A DNA stretch of 43,165 nt from the IMG/VR virus record IMGVR_UViG_3300047323_000115, positions 1 to 43,165 of that record; one strand, given 5' to 3'. Made by a program: the position numbers and the translations under genes. Below the pieces are notes generated by a model, which made no database searches, was not told the origin of the DNA, and was given only the letters and a program-made list of their open reading frames with translations. Positions within the stretch are counted from its first letter, which is position 1; every line of letters starts with the position of its first letter. Shown piece by piece: positions 18,682 to 43,165 of the stretch. The DNA is from a virus.

Positions 18682-20700
18682 ATGACACTCCCAAACACCC
18701 CAATCCCTCTGCGTCCTAAATCACAACAAGCGGTTATTGAATATCTTAAAGAATGTTTTGGTCTTTATAATAAGGGCATTAATATTCGTGAAAAGTTACG
18801 AGAACTGGACATTGCTTATAACCGTGAGAAGAATCAACTAGCAGAACATAAGCGAGCCAAGGCAGCTAATACTTATGGTGATCAGAACCGTTTTCAGGAT
18901 CTCACCATTCCTGTTGTTATGCCACAGGTTGAGGCCGCAGTAGTTTACCAATCCTCTGTATTCCTGCAAGGTACTCCTATCTTCGGCATTGCACCTTCTC
19001 CCCAGTATGCAGCTGAAGGTTTGCAGATGGAATCTCTTATGGCGAATCATGCTACTAAGGGTGGTTGGGTTCGTGAGTTGCAAATGAGTTTTCGAGATGG
19101 TTTTAAATACAATCTCGCAGCAGTGGAAGTTGTATGGGAACGTAAGACTACTGCATCTCTGGAGTCTGATGTTAATTTTGGTAATGGCAAGGTTGGTAAG
19201 CCTAAGGAAACTATCTGGGAAGGTAACGTCTTCCGTAAGATGGATCTGTATAATAGTTTCTGGGATCTTCGTGTAGCTCCAACTCGTGTTCACCTTGATG
19301 GTGAGTTCGCAGGTTATAAGCTGCTGATGTCTCGTATCAAACTGAAGAGCTTTATTAATGAACTTCCAGATAAGATTATTGGAAACATTAAGGAAGCGTT
19401 TGAATCTGGTAATGGCGCAGGCAGTGGTATTAATGCTCTGAACAGTATCTTCAATTACTATGTGCCAGAACTGAATGTTCATGGTGGCTTGCTGGATGGA
19501 GCTAACCAAGGTATGAATTGGATGAACTGGGCAGGACTGTCCGGTGCAGATACCAATAAGATTCAGTATAAGAATATGTATGATGTTACTATTCTGTACG
19601 CACGAATCCTGCCTAGTGATTTCGCAATGATTGTTCCGCAGGCTAATACGCCGCAGATCTGGAAGTTTATCATTGTGAATAACGAAGTTCTTATTTATGC
19701 TGAACGCCAGACTAATGCTCACAACATGCTGCCGATTCTGTTTATGCAGCCGAATGAAGATGGACTTGGCTATCAGACTAAATCTCTTGCTAAGAATGTG
19801 GAGCCAATTCAGGATATTTCCAGTGCCCTGATGAACTCGGTAATTGCAGCCCGTCGTCGCGCCGTTAGTGACCGTGGCATTTATGATCCAAGTCGCATCG
19901 ATCACAAGCATATTAATAGTGCTAATCCATCAGCTAAGATTCCAGTTAAAGCATCTGCATATGGTAAGCCACTGAATGAAGCTTACTATTCAATTCCATT
20001 TAAGGATGACCAATCTCCTTTGATGATGCAGCAAGTTGGTATGCTTGGACAGTTCGCTAATCAAGTTAGTGGACAGAATCCAGCTAAGCAAGGCCAGTTT
20101 GTTAAAGGTAATAAAACTACTCATGAATTTGATACTGTCATGGGTAATGCTAATGGCCGTGATCAAGCAACCTCTATGCTTCTGGAAGCACAGTTCTTTA
20201 CTCCTGCCAAGGAAATACTGAAGCTGAACATCCTCCAATATCAAGGTACTGGAGATGTGTATAATCCTAAGCAGAAGACTCAAGTTGCTATTGATCCTGT
20301 TGCACTGAGAAAGGCAGCATTGGAGTTTCAAATCTCTGATGGTCTGACTCCTACGGATAAGCTTATTAATGGTGATGTTCTGGCTGTAGCATTCCAGCAG
20401 CTTGGTCAGCCTAATTCGCCAGTGGCCGCAGGATATAACTTAGCACCATTGTTCACGTATCTTATGAATACTCAGGGTGCTGATCTTGCTCCGTTTGAGA
20501 AGTCTCCTGAACAGCAAGCATATGAGCAGGCTGTTGGACAGTGGCAGCAAGTTGTTATGCAGATTGCTAAAACTAGCCCGAATATTAAGCCAGAACAATA
20601 TCCGCCACAACCTACTCCACAACAGTATGGCTATCAACCTGCTGGTAACAATGTTGCTAAGCCTCAGAACCAACAGCAACAACAGCCGGCCAGTGCTTGA
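18682..20700 (+). CDS. Portal protein (head-tail connector), 672 aa
   Basis: Large protein directly after terminase in the late operon. The N-terminal part (LRELDIAYNREKNQLAEHKR, then LTIPVVMPQVEAAVVYQSSV) is characteristic of podoviral portals of the SU10/Kuravirus-like type. The central region is mixed alpha/beta, and the C-terminus is Pro/Gln-rich with QQQQQP, probably disordered. As a dodecameric ring it nucleates head assembly with scaffold, forms the DNA channel, and docks TerL. Its stop is followed by the structured 233-nt gap. Confidence 0.88.
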   Translation: MTLPNTPIPLRPKSQQAVIEYLKECFGLYNKGINIREKLRELDIAYNREKNQLAEHKRAKAANTYGDQNRFQDLTIPVVMPQVEAAVVYQSSVFLQGTPIFGIAPSPQYAAEGLQMESLMANHATKGGWVRELQMSFRDGFKYNLAAVEVVWERKTTASLESDVNFGNGKVGKPKETIWEGNVFRKMDLYNSFWDLRVAPTRVHLDGEFAGYKLLMSRIKLKSFINELPDKIIGNIKEAFESGNGAGSGINALNSIFNYYVPELNVHGGLLDGANQGMNWMNWAGLSGADTNKIQYKNMYDVTILYARILPSDFAMIVPQANTPQIWKFIIVNNEVLIYAERQTNAHNMLPILFMQPNEDGLGYQTKSLAKNVEPIQDISSALMNSVIAARRRAVSDRGIYDPSRIDHKHINSANPSAKIPVKASAYGKPLNEAYYSIPFKDDQSPLMMQQVGMLGQFANQVSGQNPAKQGQFVKGNKTTHEFDTVMGNANGRDQATSMLLEAQFFTPAKEILKLNILQYQGTGDVYNPKQKTQVAIDPVALRKAALEFQISDGLTPTDKLINGDVLAVAFQQLGQPNSPVAAGYNLAPLFTYLMNTQGADLAPFEKSPEQQAYEQAVGQWQQVVMQIAKTSPNIKPEQYPPQPTPQQYGYQPAGNNVAKPQNQQQQQPASA

Positions 20701-20933
20701 ACCTACTTGCCATTAGCTGAACGTCGCGTATCGCTGGGCGCAGGGGCTGATAAACCTATAAGCAGATGGATACCAAGGAAATAGTGTGAGATTGCAGCGC
20801 CGACGTAAGGAGTGCGACCAATTGAAACACCCTTGGTACCTACTGTGTTAGGTTAGCATCCCCTGATAAAGCCCCGGTGAGAAGCAGAGAGCAGCGGAAC
20901 ATTTATACATAACTAATAACCTGAAAGAATAAC
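20701..20933 (+). ncRNA. Candidate structured RNA between portal and scaffold genes
   Basis: No reading frame of useful length is present. The central 180 nt (20721-20900) are about 53% G+C, unlike other gaps here. Proposed helices are: CAGGGG 20741-20746 with CCCCTG 20860-20865; AACCTA 20753-20758 with TAGGTT 20849-20854; TACCAAGG 20771-20778 with CCTTGGTA 20831-20838; GTGT 20784-20787 with ACAC 20827-20830. ACGTCG 20721-20726 with CGACGT 20801-20806 and CGCTG 20732-20736 with CAGCG 20795-20799 cross these and form a pseudoknot. GGGGCT 20743-20748 may instead pair with AGCCCC 20870-20875. CTGATAAA occurs twice (20747, 20863). No group I, hammerhead or tRNA core is recognised. Confidence 0.65.
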
Positions 20934-21224
20934 ATGGCAACTACTGTACCTAATCAATTCACTCAATATAATCTTGCTGATGCTGAGTCTCTGGCTGGAC
21001 AGACTCTCAGTATTAATCAACTGATGGTGCTTCAGAATCTTCGTGCTGAATATGCGCTTAAGAAGATTGCACTAGTATATACTCCAGATGCTCACCAACA
21101 ATATCTGCAACAGGAAGCAGAAATTACTGGTTGGCTCAACTGTCTTAATTATATTATGGATTCCAATGAAGCTGCTAGGGAGGCCATTGTAACTGCTGCT
21201 AATAGCGGAAACAACGAATCCTGA
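20934..21224 (+). CDS. Small structural-region protein, 96 aa
   Basis: Helical protein (LSINQLMVLQNLRAEYALKK, QQYLQQEAEITGWLNCLNYI) between portal and scaffold. Similar small proteins are found at this place in related podoviruses; their role is unknown. A minor virion or assembly component is likely from context. The start follows CTGAAAGAATAAC, a weak ribosome site. Confidence 0.7.
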   Translation: MATTVPNQFTQYNLADAESLAGQTLSINQLMVLQNLRAEYALKKIALVYTPDAHQQYLQQEAEITGWLNCLNYIMDSNEAAREAIVTAANSGNNES

Positions 21225-21315: not shown

Positions 21316-22074
21316 ATGTCTATTTTTGAAAAGCTGTTTGGTAATGCGCAACCTGCGCCAGCACCTGCTCCTGCTCCGCAAGCGGCTCCTGCAACTCCCG
21401 GCAATATTCCAGCTGTGCCACCTGCTAATAATCCAGTAGCTACTAATGGTACTGCTCCTAACGGTGTTGTTCCTAATGATCCTGCTACTAACGGAACTGC
21501 TGCTCCTAGTCTTGATGCATTTAAAGATATCTGGAGTGTTGATCCTAACGCAGGTGCACAAGGACAACCACTGTTTAATGTTGATCAAGCTAAGATGTTG
21601 GAAGCTGCACGTAAGCAGAACTTCACTAGCGGCATTAATCCTGATCTGGTAAACAAGGTTGCTGCTGGTGGTGCTGAAGGTGTGCAAGCAATGATGGAAA
21701 TTATGAATATGGTTTCCCAGAATGTGTACGCACAATCTGCATTCGCTGGTACTAAGCTAATTGAAGGTGCGCTTGATAAGTCGCAGTTTGCACGATCAGC
21801 TGATCTAGATACCCGTTTCAAGTCTCTGAGTGTGAGTAATAACCTAGCAGAACAAAACCCAATCTTCAACAACCCTGCAGCTAAGCCAATGCTGGATATG
21901 GTTAAGAACCAGATCTTGGTTAAGCATCCTAACGCTTCGCAACAAGAACTTACGAGGATGGCTCAGGATTACCTGACTAGCTTCGCAAATGAAATCTCAG
22001 CGCCGCAAGCCCAACAACAGCAACAGCAACAAGCTAAAGCTGCACAGGGTACGGATTGGTCTACTTTCCTGTAA
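21316..22074 (+). CDS. Scaffold protein, 252 aa
   Basis: N-terminal 70 residues are Pro/Ala/Asn-rich low complexity (repeated APAP, TNGTAPNG), the centre is helical (GVQAMMEIMNMVSQNVYAQS, LDTRFKSL), and the C-terminus has a run of seven Gln then a basic/acidic tip TDWSTFL. This composition and its place directly before the major capsid gene are typical of a scaffolding protein that directs capsid assembly and then leaves the prohead. CGGAG lies 8 nt upstream of ATG. Confidence 0.85.
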   Translation: MSIFEKLFGNAQPAPAPAPAPQAAPATPGNIPAVPPANNPVATNGTAPNGVVPNDPATNGTAAPSLDAFKDIWSVDPNAGAQGQPLFNVDQAKMLEAARKQNFTSGINPDLVNKVAAGGAEGVQAMMEIMNMVSQNVYAQSAFAGTKLIEGALDKSQFARSADLDTRFKSLSVSNNLAEQNPIFNNPAAKPMLDMVKNQILVKHPNASQQELTRMAQDYLTSFANEISAPQAQQQQQQQAKAAQGTDWSTFL

Positions 22075-22113: not shown

Positions 22114-23334
22114 ATGTCTACTGGTACTTTTACTACTGCGCAACTGACGCAGGATTTGGCAGCAAAGAGCTTTGCTGGTATGATTACCCGCCTGATGCCA
22201 AACGGTTCTGCACCGTTGTTTGGTATGTCGGCAATGCTGGCTAACGAAACTGCTGTTCAAGTTGAACACGGATTCTTCACCAAAACTATGCTGTTCCCGT
22301 CGCTGACGCTGGCAGCTTCGGCTCTGAGTACTGATACTACTCTGACGGTTCTTAGCACTGCTAACGTTCTGCCGGGTATGATCATGCAGGTTCCAACTAC
22401 CAACGAGAACGTTATTATCAATAGCGTTACCGATGCAACTCACGTGACTGTGACTCGTGCTGTTGGTACTGTTGCTGCTGCTGCTATTGCTAACTCGGTT
22501 GCAATTAATCAGATTGGTAACGCATACGAAGAAGGTTCTGTGCGTCCGAACTCGCTGATTATCAATCCGGTGCGTATCACTAACTACACCCAGATCTTCC
22601 GTAATACTTGGGCGATTACTGATACCATCCGTGCTACGCTGATGATTGCTGGCGAATCTAACGATGCTGAGTCGCGTCAAGATTGCGCAGCTTTCCACGC
22701 AGCTGATATCGAGAAAGCACTGATCTTTGGTCAGAAGTCGCAAGGTGTTCGCAATGGTATGCCATTCCGTACCATGGATGGTCTGATTAACATTGTTAAC
22801 AACCTGTCCTACTACCCTTCGAGCTACGCTGCTCCTAACGTTAGTACTGCTGGTGCAACTACTAACTACACGCAGCTGGAAACCATGCTGGATCCAATGT
22901 TCAACCAGACTACGGATCCTAAGGTTGCTAACGAACGTGTTCTGTTTGTTGGCGGTGGTGCTAAGAAGGTGATCAACAAGATTGGTCAGCTGAATGGTAC
23001 TTACATGATGGTTGATGGTGCTACTAGCTATGGTCTGCAATTCTCGACCTTCAAAACTAGCCGTGGTACTTTCCGCCTGATTGAGCACCCGCTGTTTAAC
23101 ACCAATGCTAACTGGTCGAAGATGGCTGTTGGTGTTGATCTCTCTACCTTCAAGGTTGCTTATCTGGGTGATCGCAAGACTCAGAATAAGGAATTCAACA
23201 CTGATGGTAAGGAAGCCAATGACAACGGTGTGGATGCAGTTGGTGGTACTCTGACTACTGAGATGACTTGCGTGGTGAAGAACCCGCCAGCTAACTCGGT
23301 GGTGTACAACCTGACTGCTGGTGCACAAGGTTAA
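22114..23334 (+). CDS. Major capsid protein, SU10-type (DUF5309-like), 406 aa
   Basis: Follows the scaffold gene and shows the strongest codon bias in the window (CTG, GTT, CGT, AAC). The N-terminal TFTTAQLTQDLAAKSFAGMI and RLMPNGSAPLFGM segments, the FRNTWAITDTIRATLMIAGE region and the C-terminal RLIEHPLF match the SU10 major head protein family with an HK97 fold. Residues about 65-130 (DTTLTVLSTANVLPGMIMQV onward) look like an inserted beta domain in the first part. A strong terminator lies 21 nt after the stop. Confidence 0.9.
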   Translation: MSTGTFTTAQLTQDLAAKSFAGMITRLMPNGSAPLFGMSAMLANETAVQVEHGFFTKTMLFPSLTLAASALSTDTTLTVLSTANVLPGMIMQVPTTNENVIINSVTDATHVTVTRAVGTVAAAAIANSVAINQIGNAYEEGSVRPNSLIINPVRITNYTQIFRNTWAITDTIRATLMIAGESNDAESRQDCAAFHAADIEKALIFGQKSQGVRNGMPFRTMDGLINIVNNLSYYPSSYAAPNVSTAGATTNYTQLETMLDPMFNQTTDPKVANERVLFVGGGAKKVINKIGQLNGTYMMVDGATSYGLQFSTFKTSRGTFRLIEHPLFNTNANWSKMAVGVDLSTFKVAYLGDRKTQNKEFNTDGKEANDNGVDAVGGTLTTEMTCVVKNPPANSVVYNLTAGAQG

Positions 23335-23354
23335 TTAATCCTGTAATTCCTATT

Positions 23355-23393
23355 GCAGTGAGTCTGTTATATTTAGCAGCTCACTGCTTTTTT
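23355..23393 (+). terminator. Rho-independent terminator after major capsid gene
   Basis: GCAGTGAG (23355-23362) pairs with CTCACTGC (23380-23387), followed by six T. Loop is 17 nt. Partial termination here would raise scaffold and capsid messages over the tail genes. Confidence 0.85.
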
Positions 23394-23416
23394 ATACCCT
23401 AAATCTGGAGTTTAAT

Positions 23417-40610: not shown

Positions 40611-41893
40611 TATACCATATTCCTTTCTTCGTCTGTGAGATAATTATAATCAACCGTATCAGAATCAACTTCAACGACTGGTTTCCTTTTACTGAGATAC
40701 TTACCTTCAACTGCAAACACCATATCTGCGGTCATCAGGTTTCGCAACTGAACAGCGAGATCATCAACCTTATCCAGATCAGTAACACAGAAGCTCCAGA
40801 TTTCCCTGAGACTCATAGCCTTCCCAGAATTAGCAAGGATGCTCATGATCTTGTGAGTTACATCACTGTTCCGCGCCCTACCGAATTGTCCCAATGCTTT
40901 AGGCATCAAGCTTTCAGTATGAGTAAGAATAGTATTAGCTTCGATAACGTGGGCATGTTCAATTCTAGTACTATACTCACAAGCACTGATAATAAGACAC
41001 AGCTTAAGCAGATGAGTAAAACGACGATTCGAATATGAGGCAAATCTAACATCGTCCATCTTCTTGCCATTGACATATATCTTTTCCAGCAATGCTTTAG
41101 CATCATCGTCAATCTCTGCCTTACCTTTGACTACCATCTTGATTCTTTGGAGCGCACTGATTATCTTATTAGTAGCTTCAGTACTGGGCATGACTGGGAA
41201 GGTAATCTTCTTACCTGTCTCTTCTCCGTAGATCAATAGCAAGCGACTAAAGAAGCCTTGACCAAGAGTATCAGGAGGAAAGGCATTAGAAAAGCTAGTG
41301 CTAGTATTACCACCAAGAATACTGACAGTAGGATTAAGAATAGATACCGACTTGCCGGTCTTGATTCGGTTCTTAAACACTCCGTTATAGTCCCATAGAT
41401 TTCCAAGCAAGCTAATGAACTCCAGATTACCAATGCCAATGAAGTCATTGAACTCATCACAGGCAATGTACATTTCACAATCATCTCCAAGCTCCTCGCT
41501 ATTAAATCCTAGGTTCTCATCTAGAAGTTCTTCAAGTGTCTTTCCTTTCTGTCCTTTGTTATTAGTCTCAAGAGAGCCGTCTTCAATCCCTGCCAGATCG
41601 AGCATGAATTTTTCTTTGGAAGTTTTATCACCACTGATCTTATCAAACCCAGCAGCAGTAATAATCTTCTTGGCTATCTTAATCGCTGTACTCTTACGGG
41701 TGCCGGGTTCTCCAATAAGCATGATATACATATTCGTATACAGCTCAAAGTGGCCAAGAGAGAATGAGTACTGTCTCCCAAGATAAGCTCCAACCATAGA
41801 TATCGCTGACCATCTGTGATAAAAGATTGGAGCTTCCGTGTCACCAACGTAAGAGAGATATTGTCGCAGGAAGCTATCTCTCATAAGTTCCAT
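40610..41893 (-). CDS. DUF3987-like replicative helicase ATPase, 427 aa
   Basis: The N-terminus FLRQYLSYVGDTEAPIFYHR followed by Walker A GEPGTRKST (residues 61-69) and Walker B YIACDEFND (D146, E147) is typical of phage DUF3987-type primase-helicase ATPases. A sensor-like GGNTSTSF and an arginine-rich FSRLLLIYGE segment follow. No primase or zinc domain is visible. Together with pol A it is the probable replication fork motor. The C-terminus contains a winged-helix-like region (MSLREIWSFCVTDLDKVDDL). Confidence 0.85.
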   Translation of the reverse strand: MELMRDSFLRQYLSYVGDTEAPIFYHRWSAISMVGAYLGRQYSFSLGHFELYTNMYIMLIGEPGTRKSTAIKIAKKIITAAGFDKISGDKTSKEKFMLDLAGIEDGSLETNNKGQKGKTLEELLDENLGFNSEELGDDCEMYIACDEFNDFIGIGNLEFISLLGNLWDYNGVFKNRIKTGKSVSILNPTVSILGGNTSTSFSNAFPPDTLGQGFFSRLLLIYGEETGKKITFPVMPSTEATNKIISALQRIKMVVKGKAEIDDDAKALLEKIYVNGKKMDDVRFASYSNRRFTHLLKLCLIISACEYSTRIEHAHVIEANTILTHTESLMPKALGQFGRARNSDVTHKIMSILANSGKAMSLREIWSFCVTDLDKVDDLAVQLRNLMTADMVFAVEGKYLSKRKPVVEVDSDTVDYNYLTDEERNMV

Positions 41894-41894
41894 C

Positions 41895-42227
41895 TTATTC
41901 CTGTTCAGGTTCAGTCAGATAGTACTTACGATAGTAGGCATGAAAACCAATAGCTTTAATCTCTGCTATCTGATCTTCTCGAAGGGACTCAACTGCTAAC
42001 TCAAACTTATCTTCAGCAGGAATATCCCACTTCATACAGCGGCCCATAGTTTGTTCTTGACCTAACAAGCGATCCACAAAGTCTGTAATCTCACTGTTCT
42101 TGCTAGGATAAGTATTGGTTCCACGCTTGCACATCTGTTTAAATTCTTCAGCCATGCTAGCAGGAACTACGATATCAATACTTCCATCTGCTTGGGTAGT
42201 TACGCCAATGCGATTAATACGATTCAT
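41895..42227 (-). CDS. Hypothetical protein between polymerase and helicase, 110 aa
   Basis: Begins MNRINRIGVTTQADGSIDIV; acidic C-terminus. AGGAG lies 8 nt before ATG and the stop is 1 nt from the helicase start. Its position between DNA polymerase and helicase genes suggests a replisome accessory role, but no domain is recognised. Confidence 0.7.
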   Translation of the reverse strand: MNRINRIGVTTQADGSIDIVVPASMAEEFKQMCKRGTNTYPSKNSEITDFVDRLLGQEQTMGRCMKWDIPAEDKFELAVESLREDQIAEIKAIGFHAYYRKYYLTEPEQE

Positions 42228-42239
42228 AACTATAACTCC

Positions 42240-43165
42240 TTATTCTGTTTCGGACCACCTTAGTGCGCCCATATGATCTTTACCATTCTTAACGTCAGCT
42301 GGAACTGTGAAGGTTCTAGTGACACCATCGTACCCAAGACACCTGATTGGAACTTGCATACGCTCCGCTACCATATCCATAAGATACTCATGCCCTTCCC
42401 GGAACTGGAAAAGAATAGAGTCATGAATCTGTGCGCAGAGTTTAAAGTTTTTAGAATACTTAGGGTTTAATGCTATCTCATAGAAGACTTTGATGTAAGC
42501 TTCATTCAGAGCTTTAGCATTTAGGGATTGTGAAACGTGGGCGACTAACGAGTTTTTGTCTAGCTTATTCTTTTGTGGATTACCGAAACAGTAACGAGTC
42601 CAACCTTCTAATGGCTCAAGTTCCCAGTCAGTTTTGATTGGGTTCTCATCCACGAAATCATATACAGCAGGTACACCCATTGCAGTATGAGACACTAGCA
42701 TGTTGGTAGTCATAACTTCATGAACTACAGCAGGATAATATTTGAGTCTTAGTGTTTTATAGGTATGATGGAAACCTTCTAACAGATGATGTGCTACATC
42801 TCGGAGTTCATAGTGTCTAGGAAGTCTCAATAGTCTTTTAGCTTCCCAAACCTTATCTTCTCCCATAGTGTCTACTAAAACTCCTTCTCCCATGAGATAG
42901 TTAGCACCGTGATTGGTTCTCTTACTGAGATCTCGCAATGCTTTATCGAGAGTTTTTCCAGTGGCGTCGCAATACACAGCTTCGTAAGGCACACCAAAGA
43001 ATGCAGATGCATTAAGTGCATGAAAATCTCGGGGAGAGTTGATTGCTGCAAGTAAGGCAGGATCTCCAGACACGTAGGCAGTGTCTCTAGTTTCGGCTTG
43101 CTTAAGATCAGCTTCTGCAATCCTGAAACCTGCATCAGCAATAATTGTTTGTTTAACTTCTGGTC
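42240..43165 (-). CDS. Family A DNA polymerase, C-terminal third (continues from 1-1595)
   Basis: This is the rest of the polymerase whose N-terminal part lies at 1-1595; bases 43039-43165 duplicate 1-127. Using full-length numbering, the O-helix region RDLSKRTNHGANYLMGEG gives R567 and K571, with His where most family A enzymes have an aromatic at the ribose-side gate. Motif C QIHDSILF gives H737 and D738. A short fingers-thumb insert and a normal C-terminus follow, ending ...GALRWSETE. All key polymerase residues are present, so it should be active. Confidence 0.95.
   Translation of the reverse strand, partial: PEVKQTIIADAGFRIAEADLKQAETRDTAYVSGDPALLAAINSPRDFHALNASAFFGVPYEAVYCDATGKTLDKALRDLSKRTNHGANYLMGEGVLVDTMGEDKVWEAKRLLRLPRHYELRDVAHHLLEGFHHTYKTLRLKYYPAVVHEVMTTNMLVSHTAMGVPAVYDFVDENPIKTDWELEPLEGWTRYCFGNPQKNKLDKNSLVAHVSQSLNAKALNEAYIKVFYEIALNPKYSKNFKLCAQIHDSILFQFREGHEYLMDMVAERMQVPIRCLGYDGVTRTFTVPADVKNGKDHMGALRWSETE
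43039..43165. repeat. Right copy of 127-bp terminal direct repeat
   Basis: Identical to 1-127. Removing one copy joins the polymerase reading frame perfectly (AIN|SPRD), which confirms that the assembly closes into a circle. Confidence 0.95.

Follow-up and report, generated by a model that had tools for sequence, protein, structure and literature searches.

A conserved rod-shaped element, probably acting as RNA, between the portal and scaffold genes of podophages

What is the 233-nt gap (20701-20933) that separates the portal gene from the next ORF in a stretch of viral DNA of 43,165 nt (IMG/VR record IMGVR_UViG_3300047323_000115, positions 1 to 43,165; hereafter, the window)? The 180 nt at its centre (20716-20895) have a G+C content of 52.8%, compared with 42% for the window, which confirms the value of about 53% given in a first-pass annotation of this DNA. 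The same annotation placed the gap between the portal and scaffold genes. The portal gene does adjoin it, but the next gene is an ORF of ~96 aa, and the putative scaffold gene comes after that one (Table 1). At the end of the record, on the minus strand (40613-43073), lie primase- and DNA polymerase-like genes; the polymerase gene is apparently cut there, and thus the record is probably incomplete or permuted.

RNA folding of the gap gave -72.9 kcal/mol (z -4.0), and none of 200 dinucleotide shuffles folded as well. Fold energy alone is not special, because the 3′ end of the capsid gene (23201-23400), perhaps a terminator, reaches z -4.9. As the z-score is weak by itself, our claim rests on comparative evidence. 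A search of IMG/VR with the capsid protein identified hundreds of relatives, the nearest isolates being PaP2-like Pseudomonas phages and a few others (25-45% identity). The element is 83% identical in three related loci (L002, L004 and L095), while those of L005 and L040 were missed by BLAST and aligned end to end by MAFFT, as was that of L004. The first-pass annotation had proposed covariation in related loci and a search of Rfam as checks. RNAalifold on four homologous sequences returned 48 pairs, 22 of them with pair-keeping changes on both sides; 95.3% of the cells in this alignment are paired, and 0 of 500 shuffles attained this result. The sample is small (four sequences) and the structure was derived from those same sequences, but controls in which the partners were slid by 1-3 columns have the same relatedness and yet yielded only 1-3 covarying pairs. 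Between the window and L004, identity is 83% in the element and 80% in the portal DNA, so that in this comparison the element barely exceeds coding DNA in conservation. We regard it as almost certain that positions 20713-20911 are a genuine conserved structured element. The structured RNA that the first-pass annotation had seen at the portal/scaffold boundary is supported by covariation, by coding-strand asymmetry and by the reappearance of such elements at this slot in further phages.

The consensus is one long unbranched rod of ~180 nt, in which short helices are split by purine-rich internal loops. In the basal stem, 3x3 purine-rich internal loops lie between the GC pairs, with two-sided changes in part, and by inspection this layout recurs in other sub-families. 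The GCAG ... GACC internal loop of the apical domain is conserved, and the apical domain is also kept in L225. The covariance model R1, which includes the window itself, scored the window at 197.9 bits in cmsearch. The nested helices previously drawn by hand proved to be real, backed by compensatory changes in homologues. In contrast, the 11-bp split helix supposed to cross them (ACGTCG/CGACGT plus GGCGC/GCGCC) forms in the window only, with 3/6, 3/6 and 2/6 pairs of its first part and 3/5, 4/5 and 4/5 of its second in the homologues. The alternative pairing of GGGG, suggested as a switch, can be drawn in all four sequences because the 5′ arm has two similar segments, but no switch is needed because one nested rod satisfies both 3′ segments simultaneously. 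The direct repeat CTGATAAA is indeed present in two copies (20747 and 20863), and it is kept in the closest homologue, L004, but not in L040 or L005.

Table 1. Coordinates of the rod, its parts and neighbouring genes in the window, and loci carrying rods or the family 2 apical tip
Feature	Position	Strand	Remarks
Portal protein gene	18682..20700	+	PHROG 15554 portal, E 1e-75; directly 5′ of gap
Rod-shaped structured RNA element, family 1	20713..20911	+	Limits by covariance model R1
Basal stem	20716..20895	+	GC pairs 20716-20717/20894-20895 and 20726-20727/20884-20885; RNAalifold consensus
Lower helix CUGGGC/GCCCCGG	20734-20739 with 20871-20876	+	Within 20734..20876
Lower helix GGGG/UCCC	20743-20746 with 20859-20862	+	Within 20734..20876
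Middle helix AACCUA/UAGGUU	20753-20758 with 20849-20854	+	Compensatory changes in L004, L040, L005
Middle helix GCAG/CUGU	20762-20765 with 20843-20846	+	Compensatory changes in L004, L040, L005
Clamp helix UACCAAGG/CCUUGGUA	20771-20778 with 20831-20838	+	8/8 pairs in 4/4 homologous sequences, compensatory changes
Apical domain	20784..20830	+	GUGU/ACAC, GAUUG/CAAUU, GCAG ... GACC internal loop, terminal hairpin
AT-rich linker before next start codon	20912..20933	+	No promoter-like or terminator-like site
~96-aa gene	20934..21224	+	No PHROG match; homologues in relatives; directly 3′ of gap
Putative scaffold gene	21316..22074	+	By position and composition; no PHROG match
Major capsid protein gene	22114..23334	+	PHROG 1328, E 3e-36
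Rod-bearing loci			L002, L005, L007, L011, L019, L023, L040, L042, L066, L118, L145 (=L112), L183, L221, L225
Family 2 tip AAGGCCNNAGAGCGNAGCGTGCCTT or close variants, podophages	L007 3730, L011 3351, L019 2112, L042 1842, L112 and L118 (- strand)		
Tip AAGGCCNNAGAGCGNAGCGTGCCTT or close variants elsewhere			GTDB loci L256-L300; L301, L302, L303, L304, L305, L307, L308, L310

No RNA database searched here contains this folded RNA. Rfam gave zero matches in the window at the gathering score and none for 20660-20980 even at E values up to 10, and ARAGORN found 0 tRNA or tmRNA genes in the window. Our search of open-licence papers turned up nothing that describes the element or the family 2 tip presented below. 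The DNA pattern ATCGCCNTAAGGCGAG retrieved from IMG/VR only known members and chance hairpins, and a second family 1 pattern retrieved zero new members.

Among 102 related IMG/VR loci with portal and scaffold, 14 have a G+C-rich rod between these genes; L010 and L180, which are ambiguous, do not count among the 14. Carriers have it in the same slot and on the same strand, after portal and before the ~96-aa gene that precedes scaffold. The interval is mostly taken up by one ~95-aa gene in the remaining loci, and in rod-less relatives the two genes mostly abut or overlap; about 85% of the relatives whose portal and capsid are homologous have no rod in the slot. The first-pass annotation had held that homologues lacking the interval or compensatory changes would count against it: most relatives do lack the interval, and compensatory changes are seen in the aligned homologues. 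In six rod-less records, searched piecewise and in two cases short of the end, we saw no convincing G+C-rich structured gap elsewhere that could replace the rod. On a portal tree the rod label needs at least 9 changes compared to 15.1 for shuffled labels, a count that is approximate because L145 was scored there as rod-less; the rod is therefore inherited, yet often gained or lost. In PaP2 the rod folds with z -5.6, and it recurs with 96-100% identity in 16 PaP2-like Pseudomonas phage records, some of which are duplicates of one genome. Seven records of this group showed 2 differences in 6x125 rod bases versus 80 in 6x286 flanking bases, and judging from these alignments the PaP2 group rod is under purifying selection. 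By eye, a shorter candidate rod could be read in the slot of Aeromonas phage P5, and the rod is absent from Polaromonas phage Tiera and EBPR podovirus 3. An additional ORF separates portal from rod in L005 (between 3019 and 3553), in L019 (before 1981) and in PaP2 (p09; L244 4106-4675), and L145 also has an ORF intervening in the slot. Those of L005 and L019 are similar at the DNA end read; for that of PaP2, some records give the annotation NTP hydrolase or kinase.

As to whether the element works as RNA or as DNA, the sense strand folded better than the antisense in 16 of 16 elements, a set outside which PaP2, P5 and L102 fall. The sense consensus reached -47.9 with 22 covarying pairs, compared to -38.4 and 17 for the antisense. 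Two alignments contained 32 G-U cells versus 2 A-C cells, a count biased toward G-U because structure prediction allowed G-U. With DNA parameters, the plus strand of the window gave z -2.2 and the minus strand z -1.2, compared to z -4.0 as RNA. The element probably acts as RNA rather than DNA. The rod is a conserved, strand-specific secondary structure, fixed at the boundary between portal and the small gene-scaffold-capsid block, that ends before the start-codon region.

Rod sequences have diverged into several sub-families. Six family 2 elements (L007, L011, L019, L042, L112 and L118) have the apical hairpin CAAGGCCNNAGAGCGNAGCGUGCCUU(G) in common, and an alignment of four family 2 members (A3) gave 50 pairs, 7 of them covarying; L023 and L221 have another apical hairpin in common. 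Features found across sub-families by inspection are an AAGG/CCUU clamp, basal GC pairs and CGNAG modules, of which the 16 elements contain 66 on the sense and 3 on the antisense strand (~25 expected) and the window one. Judging by slot and architecture, a single ancestral RNA for all sub-families is likely.

The family 2 tip AAGGCCNNAGAGCGNAGCGTGCCTT is a 25-nt apical hairpin with 22 specified bases, and its flanks vary between copies and largely pair. It was found exactly in 45 GTDB genome stretches, from Spirochaetes to Alphaproteobacteria, where our own arithmetic predicts ~0.03 by chance. The tip or a close variant also occurs in non-coding regions of Microviridae (KP087951, MG945841, MW202568) and of an inovirus (PQ006165). 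Among plasmids, Nocardia pYS1 has the tip 190 nt past its rep gene, a Mesorhizobium plasmid has it between T4CP and MobQ, and Rhizobium and Agrobacterium plasmids have it with ParA on one side and mobC/traA or its counterpart on the other. Its orientation to the genes varies in ssDNA phages and plasmids, which fits a DNA-level role better there, and one Microviridae copy is on the strand opposite the genes. No Rfam family covered the tip in the 18 loci tested. The window's family 1 element lacks the family 2 tip and has no nucleotide match in phages, and its homologue L040 has no plasmid match; the tip is therefore a lead on relatives rather than a property of the window. We also considered whether the tip is a k-turn and dropped the idea, because GU, and not GA, stands opposite GA. 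The same tip is also present in a rod upstream of terS, encoding the terminase small subunit, in an otherwise unrelated phage contig (L102, 4100-4280). The tip also recurs in intergenic arrays of bacteria, with tandem copies that resemble gene-cassette arrays in L256, L259 and L270; in Treponema (L259) the copies lie between acetyltransferase and phosphotransferase genes, and identity between them stops at ...GACCAGACGTA.

T7-like phages have RNase III-type processing hairpins between cistrons. By analogy with these, our tentative preference, held with somewhat less than even confidence, is that the rod may be a cis-acting intercistronic element of the late mRNA, a boundary for processing and/or stability. 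On the late transcript it would be either a site of the RNase III type or a shield at the 5′ end of the downstream message; with the message divided or protected at the rod, expression of portal, a few-copy protein, would be uncoupled from that of scaffold and capsid, which are made in many copies. The sequence of the apical domain is more conserved, and this domain is probably protein-bound. As expected of an RNase III-type element, the mRNA strand has an irregular duplex here between two cistrons. Like the T7-like hairpins, the rod is irregularly double-stranded, intergenic, on the coding strand and ends before the next ribosome-binding site, but it is much longer, its apical sequence is conserved, its purine internal loops are symmetric and it comes in sub-families. 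Of the options listed in the first-pass annotation, control of the portal/scaffold ratio or processing of the mRNA is the most plausible. Against such a cis-acting mRNA role, most relatives manage without the rod.

The main rival is a single-strand DNA hairpin working as an sso/ssi-like initiation site, which we consider unlikely. Were forks to move rightward out of the divergent early/late region, lagging-strand synthesis would use the late coding strand as its template, and the rod would bring in primase, a primosome or RNA polymerase. This explanation was raised because the exact apical hairpin of one sub-family also occurs in ssDNA phages and in plasmid rep/relaxase regions. The tip in the non-coding regions of Microviridae and Inoviridae and in the neighbourhoods of plasmid rep, MobQ and mobC/traA speaks for it, since these are places of single-stranded DNA and complementary-strand priming, and sso-type sites attract RNA polymerase or primase (PMC4595007). 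Single-strand origins and ssi sites are also, like the rod, strand-specific imperfect hairpins in non-coding DNA, and the family 2 tip lies in the vicinity of rep, relaxase and Rep genes. However, the window's family 1 element has a different tip, its homologue L040 has no plasmid match, and the podophage slot is constant beside one head gene, a placement that ssi sites do not require. Moreover, the fold is less convincing with DNA parameters than as RNA, the window has its own primase-like gene, one Microviridae tip copy lies on the strand opposite the genes, and the reference G4 origin folds into separate hairpins, not one rod. A broader proposal, which we find doubtful, would make the podophage rods a portable hairpin class built partly of GC(GNA)GC modules. 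The exact apical motif of one sub-family would be common to dsDNA podophages, Microviridae, Inoviridae, conjugative and rolling-circle plasmids and chromosomal cassette-like arrays, and a single host factor of wide conservation (primase, primosome or RNA polymerase) would be drawn by it to ssDNA or nascent RNA.

Other explanations fare worse. phi29 pRNA is a packaging RNA that forms a ring on the portal and is needed for packaging. A trans-acting or assembly RNA cut from the late transcript, either phi29-pRNA-like or a phage sRNA, could account for a compact, conserved element, near-invariant in the PaP2 group and located inside the head/packaging gene block, and for the occurrence of the family 2 tip ahead of terS in L102. 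The rod and pRNA are both phage-encoded, of similar size, linked to head or packaging and low in sequence but conserved in structure. Still, the rod is a single rod inside the late operon without a pRNA-type three-way junction or interlocking loops, and it matches nothing in Rfam. Since most relatives lack it, with no substitute in the six records scanned, the packaging role suggested in the first-pass annotation is disfavoured, and we judge a trans-acting RNA improbable. A functionless mobile or decaying palindromic insertion (MITE/REP-like) would explain the patchy distribution, for which the portal tree requires no fewer than 9 gains or losses, and the ORF between portal and rod in L005, L019 and PaP2. 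This reading is largely refuted by covariation and by the invariance of the PaP2 group, where selection appears to be purifying, and is very improbable: slot and strand are constant, the window's record has no second copy of the rod, and R1 run over 28 full records found only the two known members, besides antisense echoes. An intrinsic transcription terminator or attenuator between portal and scaffold would likewise produce a strong intergenic fold, but the window rod has no trailing U-run, scans of 20600-21000 found 0 terminator-like sites and likewise no promoter-like site, and no terminator is visible in PaP2; we hold this explanation to be extremely improbable.

GOLLD and ROOL are large multi-branched structured RNAs associated with phages and, like the rod, conserved and of unclear function (PMC12286853); the rod differs in not being large and multi-branched and in matching no Rfam family. 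The rod is probably a previously unclassified structured RNA, and it lies in a region in which a tailed phage has to balance portal against scaffold and capsid. With rods also present in PaP2-like phages of P. aeruginosa, and a candidate rod in Aeromonas phage P5, these ideas are testable in ordinary laboratory phages, and the presence of the family 2 tip in ssDNA phages and in plasmid transfer/replication regions points to a shared unnamed recognition element. A further G+C-rich, strongly folding gap, 236 nt long, was observed between terminase and portal in L081 (1042-1277), a slot different from that of the window.
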